Source: Thermotoga petrophila RKU-1 (GTDB lineage Bacteria; Thermotogota; Thermotogae; Thermotogales; Thermotogaceae). Taken from it: a stretch of DNA of 64,000 nucleotides. Positions within the stretch are counted from its first letter, which is position 1. Every line of letters starts with the position of its first letter. The stretch is from assembly GCF_000016785.1 (NCBI RefSeq), contig NC_009486.1, positions 930,001-994,000 on the forward strand, read 5' to 3'. The notes under the pieces are model-generated. The model worked only from the letters and a program-made list of their open reading frames with translations, made no database searches and was not told the DNA's origin. Made by a program: the position numbers and the translations under genes. Of the stretch, positions 10,010-11,795 are shown piece by piece.

Positions 10010-10038
10010 CCCCCACTCATGTGGGGGTTATTTTTTTT
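10010..10038 (+). terminator. Rho-independent terminator after the helicase gene
   Basis: Stem CCCCCAC/GTGGGGG with a TCAT loop, then TTATTTTTTTT. Its T-run overlaps the first bases of the degenerate terminal CRISPR repeat at 10034. Confidence 0.9.
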
Positions 10039-11261
10039 CGTACATCTAAGGAAGTATTGAAACAAACTATTAGATTTTCTTAGCGAAAGAATGTCTTAGT
10101 TTCCATACCTCTAAGGAAGTATTGAAACAACAACATTTATGAATACAAGATCGTCGTCCAACTGTTTCCATACCTCTAAGGAATTATTGAAACTGAGAGA
10201 ATTTGTTCACGTTTTGGAGCGTATGCTTTAGTTTCCATACCTCTAAGGAAGTATTGAAACAGGTGTTTGACAACACGAAACAATGGGAAGACATCAGTTT
10301 CCATACCTCTAAGGAATTATTGAAACAGGAAGTCGTGTTCACAAATCCGGACGTAAAAGTGCTGTTTCCATACCTCTAAGGAACTATTGAAACAAGAGAA
10401 ATTAGAAGAAGAAGCGAAGGCGTTTTTAGAGTTTCCATACCTCTAAGGAACTATTGAAACTTTGCGAACGTACGAGATTTTTTTCACATATCATAAGTTT
10501 CCATACCTCTAAGGAACTATTGAAACAGGCCATCAAGTTTGACGGCCCTGTTGGAGTCATATTGTTTCCATACCTCTAAGGAACTATTGAAACAAATTAG
10601 AGGCAAAGAGGTTGTAATGGATGAATGGTGTTTCCATACCTCTAAGGAACTATTGAAACTGAGTTCCCCTATCCATTCAGTATCATCCTCCCCTTGGTTT
10701 CCATACCTCTAAGGAATTATTGAAACAGGAGGTGATAAAACGAAATGGGAAATTTTTCAGCCCGTTTCCATACCTCTAAGGAATTATTGAAACAAAAGCT
10801 GGTGGTACTCGAAGCCCTTCGTAGGCTTTTGTTTCCATACCTCTAAGGAATTATTGAAACTGAGAAGAGAATACGCAATATTAGTATGGCTTGAAGGTTT
10901 CCATACCTCTAAGGAATTATTGAAACCATACTCCAACGCAAAATAATATGTTCTATTTCTCAAAAGTTTCCATACCTCTAAGGAATTATTGAAACAAACG
11001 GACGAACGGTGTCGGCCAAAGTAAGGAGGATGTTTCCATACCTCTAAGGAATTATTGAAACACGAAAACGTGTTGAGGTTTCGAGTATCGAGGCGCAGTT
11101 TCCATACCTCTAAGGAATTATTGAAACCCGCCACGCATCCGGCTGCCGTAGGCGATTGGTTGGGTTTCCATACCTCTAAGGAATTATTGAAACGTGGTCT
11201 ACTACAGCACATGGATGCAGGAGGATGAAATGTTTCCATACCTCTAAGGAATTATTGAAAC
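10034..11261 (-). CRISPR. CRISPR array, 19 repeats of 30 bp and 18 spacers of 35-39 bp
   Basis: On the plus strand the repeat begins GTTTCCATACCTCTAAGGAA and ends TTATTGAAAC. It is the standard Thermotoga repeat in reverse complement. Repeat starts: 10034, 10099, 10164, 10231, 10297, 10364, 10431, 10497, 10564, 10630, 10697, 10764, 10831, 10897, 10966, 11032, 11098, 11164, 11232. Only the repeat at 10034 is degenerate (four mismatches), so that side is the old, leader-distal end. A TATAAT promoter beyond 11261 sets transcription to the minus strand. Repeat base 21 varies: T in the nine leader-proximal repeats, C in the next five, and mixed T/G in the oldest. No cas gene is in the window, so the array depends on machinery elsewhere. 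Confidence 0.98.
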
Positions 11262-11279
11262 CCGTTGAGTTCAAGAGAA

Positions 11280-11308
11280 ATTATACCACAAACACACTCT
11301 GAAAGCAA
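11280..11308 (-). promoter_or_regulatory. CRISPR leader promoter
   Basis: On the minus strand: -35 TTGCTT (11308-11303), a 17-bp spacer, and a perfect -10 TATAAT (11285-11280). The predicted transcription start (about 11273) is some 12 nt before the first repeat. Confidence 0.65.
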
Positions 11309-11548
11309 GATGTTTTTTGACCTTCCATATCCTCCCTTTCCATAAACCATTCTAACACACAAGAGAGCACCTTCAAGTACTGTTTGGAAAAATGGAATAA
11401 TTGCATAGTCAAACAAGAAAAGAACACAAGCAAAAAACAGATGATAAATTATATCAACCTACGTCAGGGCATTTTGGGATGTTTTTGGTAAAAATCGATT
11501 AGTTCCATGTTTCACAAATAGATGAAAGAAGGTATTCCTCAGTGTGTT

Positions 11549-11569
11549 AGAAGTTAACTGTTAACTTCT
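11549..11569. repeat. 21-bp perfect palindrome
   Basis: Ten-base arms AGAAGTTAAC and GTTAACTTCT surround a single T. It lies between the CRISPR leader and the gene remnant. It could be a protein-binding site or a small hairpin; there is no T-run to make it a terminator. Confidence 0.6.
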
Positions 11570-11597
11570 CTAATTAAAAGCACTTACACGTCATCGA

Positions 11598-11795
11598 TTA
11601 CCACAAATTCTCTTCATATTGTCTCTTCATATCATCCATTATTCCCTTTTTAACGCATAGCTTCCGGTACCACAAACCCGCATAAAATTTTTCGTTACCG
11701 GTAATTGCATACTCTGTATCGTTCTTCCAGTGCCAGATACACGCATCACCCACTTTGTGAATGATTGGAACTAACCTGGTTTGTATGCATAAAAG
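11598..11795 (-). pseudogene. Remnant of an unrecognised gene (C-terminal fragment)
   Basis: A 65-codon open frame on the minus strand reads as a convincing protein (IIHKVGDACIWHWKNDTEY, later FYAGLWYRKLCVKKG) and ends ENLW-stop at 11598. It has no usable start: the frame opens straight after a TAA at 11796-11798, the first codons are CTT TTA TGC, and there is no ribosome binding site. Upstream DNA is plain AT-rich sequence. I read it as the 3' end of a gene whose 5' part was lost. The family is not recognised. A short peptide starting at the internal GTG is possible but unsupported. Confidence 0.5.

Follow-up and report, generated by a model that had tools for sequence, protein, structure and literature searches.

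The genome of Thermotoga petrophila RKU-1 carries a CRISPR array whose repeats differ from one another at a single base, and the question raised by this locus is what the layered order of that base along the array records. The array lies in a 64,000-nucleotide stretch of DNA (the window, positions 930001 to 994000 of the 1,823,511-base genome), and we compared it with the other arrays of the same genome (G000) and with those of its relatives (G001 to G006). Array labels give the kb position in the genome, and labels without a prefix belong to G000. For G002 and G004 the comparison covers the fetched arrays and for G005 and G006 the repeat listing. Very probably G001 is T. maritima MSB8: the spacers of its eight arrays add up to 106, the number given for MSB8 in the accessible part of PMC5637354.

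The array occupies positions 10034 to 11261 of the window and consists of 19 near-identical repeats of 30 nt separated by 18 unique spacers of even length (35 to 39 nt). A search with the repeat pattern allowing up to three mismatches gave 18 matches in the window and none in 100 shuffles. A degenerate repeat closes the array on the left and a conserved leader of ∼535 bp adjoins it on the right, bearing out the polarity assumed in the first-pass annotation of this DNA. The features are as follows, in window positions:

10034 to 10063, minus strand: oldest, degenerate repeat, with G at base 21 on the plus strand and four changes besides base 21.
10099 to 10326, minus strand: four full repeats at the old end, matching the repeat pattern, with G, T, G, and T at base 21; the first three bases are equal in G001 and the fourth stands at a junction in G001.
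10364 to 10659, minus strand: C block of five repeats, against two C repeats and four missing spacers in G001.
10697 to 11261, minus strand: T block of nine leader-proximal repeats, with a block start common to G001.
11262 to 11794, minus strand: leader stretch, which adjoins all eight arrays of the genome.

The degenerate repeat at 10034 to 10063 is the same one in G001:0k and G001:1428k. A 151-amino-acid open frame also runs through the array on the minus strand (10784 to 11239) and is very probably no gene.

The 18 full repeats are identical at every base but 21. In the plus-strand repeat this base reads, from old to new, G, G, T, G, T, five C, and nine T, exactly the order that had been reported from the leader inwards (nine T, five C, T, G, T, G, G). 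The array shows 6 runs, where shuffles average 11.8 (P = 0.002), and the repeat listing confirms that this one-letter difference falls in blocks following the order of spacer addition. The first-pass annotation had counted at least two changes of the template repeat, which is true but too low, with five changes of state between neighboring repeats in this array alone. If each new unit copies the repeat adjacent to the leader, as is known from Escherichia coli (cited in the accessible part of PMC3396285), a changed template would leave a run of changed repeats, fixed in place together with their spacers.

Eight arrays were found in G000, the window array included. From old to new, base 21 reads G and four C in 524k, G and 12 C in 536k, G, T, and six C in 568k, and T, G, and C in 1118k, where the first two repeats are degenerate; it reads T 13 times in 1171k, G and two T in 1281k, and G and six T in 1372k. 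The leader-adjacent repeat has C in four arrays (524k, 536k, 568k, and 1118k) and T in four (1171k, 1281k, 1372k, and the window array). The oldest repeat has G in six of the eight, the exceptions being 1118k, with its highly degenerate repeat, and 1171k, which yielded no degenerate repeat at the expected spacing of the old end. In G001 and G003, the oldest repeat has G in all 16 fetched arrays. Since blocks of C or T reach the leader in other arrays of the genome, both routes proposed in the first-pass annotation are open, namely, changes of the template in place and recombination with another array carrying the C variant. The adaptation gene cas1 has one match in G000 (1110655 to 1111485), so that a single integrase likely serves all arrays. 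Spacer 3 of 524k (L001) is identical to spacer 11 of 536k (L002) with different neighbors on each, as would follow if the sequence was taken up twice or if a single unit passed between the arrays.

The orthologous array of G001 spans the chromosome start, and both of its flanks match those of the window array at 99.4%. It reads, from old to new, G, G, T, G, C, C, 14 T, and 21 G. Ten spacers are common to the two arrays with their order kept (s1 to s4, s9 to s13, and s15 of the window array being s1 to s10 of the ortholog), all toward the old end, and the leader ends differ: s16 to s18 of the window array are unshared with G001, and beyond s15 there are 3 further spacers in the window array versus 30 in G001. 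Base 21 is the same in eight of the eight repeats comparable between these arrays and in 17 of 17 over seven array pairs, a comparable repeat being one that lies between two shared spacers or is the oldest in both arrays. The seven pairs are between genomes and have at least one spacer in common with no more than one mismatch; left out were two pairs with G003:C8:0k, in which the first spacer is merely similar, and the 524k/536k pair within G000. The order of variants in these relatives is the same unit by unit rather than random, which supports the earlier reading of the blocks as a growth history, and repeat order and base are inherited together with the spacers. An assembly or sequencing artefact, or an order arisen by chance, is extremely improbable given that two genomes agree in this way and that runs fall far below those of shuffled arrays, and we found no point supporting either.

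Three repeats adjoining a shared spacer differ, each where one array continues differently. The first lies to the right of s4 (T/C), where the G001 ortholog is without s5 to s8, the others to the right of s2 in 1281k/1519k (T/G) and to the right of s1 in 396k/28k (C/G). Besides s5 to s8, s14 of the window array is absent from the ortholog. We assume that s5 to s8 were lost in G001, which is simpler than an internal gain of four spacers by the window array, and infer that the crossover of this deletion fell before base 21 because the G001 junction repeat carries C, as does the repeat flanking the gap on its newer side. After the shared s2, T is leader-adjacent in G000:1281k and G heads a run of G in G001:1519k, which may be a template change in place or a deletion junction.

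How long a time the agreement with G001 covers depends on the surrounding DNA:

1 to 28000, no strand: high-identity stretch of ∼30 kb (926 to 958 kb of the genome), mostly 99 to 100% identical to G001 outside the array.

The stretches around it, over 20 kb leftwards and beyond it on the right, are 90 to 97% identical to G001 (95 to 96% in the matched parts within 44 to 64 kb of the window), and a second high-identity stretch lies at 894 to 900 kb. These identities suggest that the ∼30-kb stretch is probably a recent exchange between the two species. Since the window array lies inside this recently shared stretch, its agreement with G001 tests inheritance over no more than a short time. Deletions and many units at the leader end have set the two arrays apart since the exchange.

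We then counted switches of base 21 over the 24 arrays of G000, G001, and G003, of which 20 are polymorphic at this base. Three rows of the array table (L010, L026, and L027) contained no repeats and were dropped. Over the 20 polymorphic arrays there are 58 runs, compared to a shuffle mean of 132.9 and a minimum of 111 in 5000 shuffles, so the variants are clustered, and the same variants lead other arrays of the same genome. Base 21 switches in 38 of 369 steps between neighboring repeats, and 30 of these switches are distinct by spacer and change; they count as independent only to the extent that shared spacers reveal it. At least 27 are left after removal of one beside the highly degenerate repeat of 1118k and of two at possible deletion junctions (G001:0k and G001:396k); 8 of the 27 rest on an oldest repeat, and 19 are left when all switches known solely beside an oldest repeat are also removed. 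All six changes among the three bases occur (G to T, G to C, T to G, C to T, T to C, and C to G), and none leads to A. At bases other than 21 we counted no change in 345 repeats of the 24 arrays, a count made without the two oldest repeats of each array, many of which are degenerate at other bases.

Relatives further afield vary in this respect. Every repeat of the seven fetched arrays of G004 has G at base 21, as do all repeats of the eight fetched arrays of G002 except for one degenerate old-end repeat, and C occurs in 2 of the 10 repeats listed for G006. Blocks at other bases were observed in G002 (bases 14 and 22) and G005 (bases 9 and 14), which shows that layering in general extends more widely across the genus. 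In the draft assembly of G004, two arrays that each lie close to a contig end have four consecutive spacers in common (L032 spacers 22 to 25 and L033 spacers 20 to 23) with different neighbors on both sides. Spacer 23 of L013 in G001 matches spacer 12 of L017 save for one extra end base, as if the target had been sampled twice. Scans of genome contigs for the named relatives with the exact pattern returned no loci, in a collection that may omit near relatives. In a search for spacer targets, comparison of the window array with phages by blastn gave 10 records (best E value, 0.03) and comparison with plasmids gave 24 (best E value, 1, among the 15 listed), both at chance level.

The reading that we favor and hold to be reasonably probable is that the template repeat passed through a succession of states, each left behind as a block and taken from a pool of three alleles, with the template often changed by recombination at the leader end and otherwise possibly by mutation. 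The eight arrays would hold the pool (G, the oldest, C, and T), recombination between their near-identical leader ends would replace the leader together with the first repeat and in this way change the template, and the remaining changes may be plain mutations at base 21 as the single tolerant base. Repeated point mutation of the template at a tolerant site could produce the same blocks with no need for recombination, and the blocks at other bases in G002 and G005 do resemble template mutations. This possibility appears rather unlikely, however, given that no change away from base 21 was seen in the 345 repeats and that the G, T, G, T order at the old end would require back mutation. With three equal targets, the chance of never reaching A would be ∼5e-6 for 30 switches and ∼5e-4 for 19, although selection against A would also explain its absence.

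Leaders and flanks show recombination between arrays. In G003:77k, the old end matches that of G000:568k (G, T, C) and then switches from C to T. The leader of G003:77k equals that of a T array, G003:47k, over the 210 alignment columns nearest to the array, and equals that of its C ortholog, G000:568k, from column 217 to the end (column 534). This is the pattern of gene conversion, with a donor tract of the 47k leader type inside the recipient's own flanks and the donor unchanged, and the position of the tract suggests that the leader swap and the switch to T happened together. Two further cases concern whole array ends. Compared with G000 and G003, the old and leader ends of G001:396k and G001:409k (L012 and L013, ∼12 kb apart) have traded places; an inversion between these two inverted arrays, its ends lying in the arrays or leaders, would produce this arrangement. 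G001:1428k combines 524 bp of old flank of the window family (98% identity) with the leader flank of another family, and the original of the copied flank stays in place, making this a one-way copy. Recombination between arrays has taken place in these genomes, beside a switch at least once.

Other leaders speak for mutation of the template. G003:28k retains its own leader across a switch from C to G, there being one difference to the C ortholog in the first 160 columns, and the leaders of 1118k (C) and 1372k (T) are identical over 534 columns beside different first repeats. For the window array, the leader has no difference from that of 1171k, also a T array, in the first 470 alignment columns and 11 differences after them. 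This common tract is of the same kind as that of G003:77k, but no donor is seen, and no link to the C-to-T step can be shown because that step predates the split from G001. Other arrays of the clade give indications that leader and first repeat were replaced, and the window step gives none.

Leader type as a predictor of the variant was not supported overall. Within genomes, mean leader distance did not differ between same-variant and different-variant pairs over four stretches (P = 0.58 to 0.85), and nearest-neighbor concordance was weak and varied with the length of leader taken (P = 0.09, 0.04, and 0.43 for 100, 150, and 200 columns), one of seven tests giving a P value of 0.04. These tests cover 22 of the 24 arrays, two contig-end arrays of G003 with 16 bp of leader having been left out.

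Blocks could also arise if whole repeat-spacer units moved in from another array, in this strain or another. The four consecutive spacers common to two G004 arrays would fit such a move, notwithstanding the draft contig ends, as would the spacer common to 524k and 536k, which repeated uptake would explain too. We regard this origin as very unlikely here, since none of the 18 window spacers occurs in another G000 array and, among the fetched arrays of G001 to G004, only the G001 ortholog has any of them. A transplant of the whole C block is unsupported on the same count.

Under the favored reading of template states changed in a three-allele pool, one can ask whether the allele matters for the repeat RNA. 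In the hairpin predicted at 37°C, the variable base (base 21, or base 10 on the other strand) forms a pair in the middle of the stem with base 21 of the RNA. The predicted folding energies at this temperature are −10.3 kcal/mol for G on the plus strand, −6.7 for C, −4.1 for T, and −7.9 for A, which was never seen; among the variants seen, the one with C in the RNA (G on the plus strand) would fold best and the one with A in the RNA (T on the plus strand) worst. The growth temperature is near 80°C, and all variants tried were predicted to be unfolded at 80°C, so a functional effect of the hairpin is only a guess. A speculative extension, which we consider quite improbable, would have the eight arrays share a moving cassette of leader and first repeat, with gene conversion keeping all of them usable by the single Cas1, the allele resetting the hairpin strength of every repeat produced from then on, and the blocks differing in RNA processing or spacer uptake as a result.

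Repeat variants of this kind are a second clock beside the spacers. They reveal template changes and recombination between arrays. Deletions also become easier to interpret, as the junction repeat of G001 shows from which side its base came. With eight arrays that share one leader, Thermotoga would be a good system in which to measure the rate of leader swaps against that of spacer addition.

The window array neatly illustrates a type of record already known and is not a new system. The base-21 pattern of Thermotoga was not found in the titles and abstract openings searched, DeBoy 2006 and Mitrofanov 2026 being beyond reach, and we make no claim that it is unpublished. According to an editorial (PMC13383573, accessible part), the survey of repeat mutations by Mitrofanov (2026) links their evolutionary signal to spacer dynamics, and at the level of this description it shares with our analysis the use of repeat mutations as an evolutionary signal. 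For Thermotoga itself, DeBoy 2006 and Mongodin 2005 are cited for CRISPR-linked chromosome recombination (PMC5637354, accessible part); there as here, arrays are sites of large-scale recombination in the genus, whereas here the exchange of ends and the one-way copy are read jointly with the repeat variants. CRISPR1 of Streptococcus agalactiae, as described in the accessible part of PMC4466440, likewise has a lineage-tied degenerate terminal repeat and single-base variants, but the variants are rare (25 of 1,837 repeats) and one array was studied. A close parallel is Pyrobaculum, for which the accessible part of a 2012 study (PMC3396285) describes clustered mixing of direct repeats, with blocks of variants within one array. 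Its authors suggest recombination (duplication) or the copying of another array's leader-proximal repeat during adaptation. As in Thermotoga, the variants form blocks and other arrays lead with some of the same variants. In Pyrobaculum the mixing concerns two arrays with core or 5′ motifs differing by one to several bases, whereas in Thermotoga a single base takes three states and varies in 20 of the 24 arrays from three genomes, and orthologs and leader tracts were compared as well.
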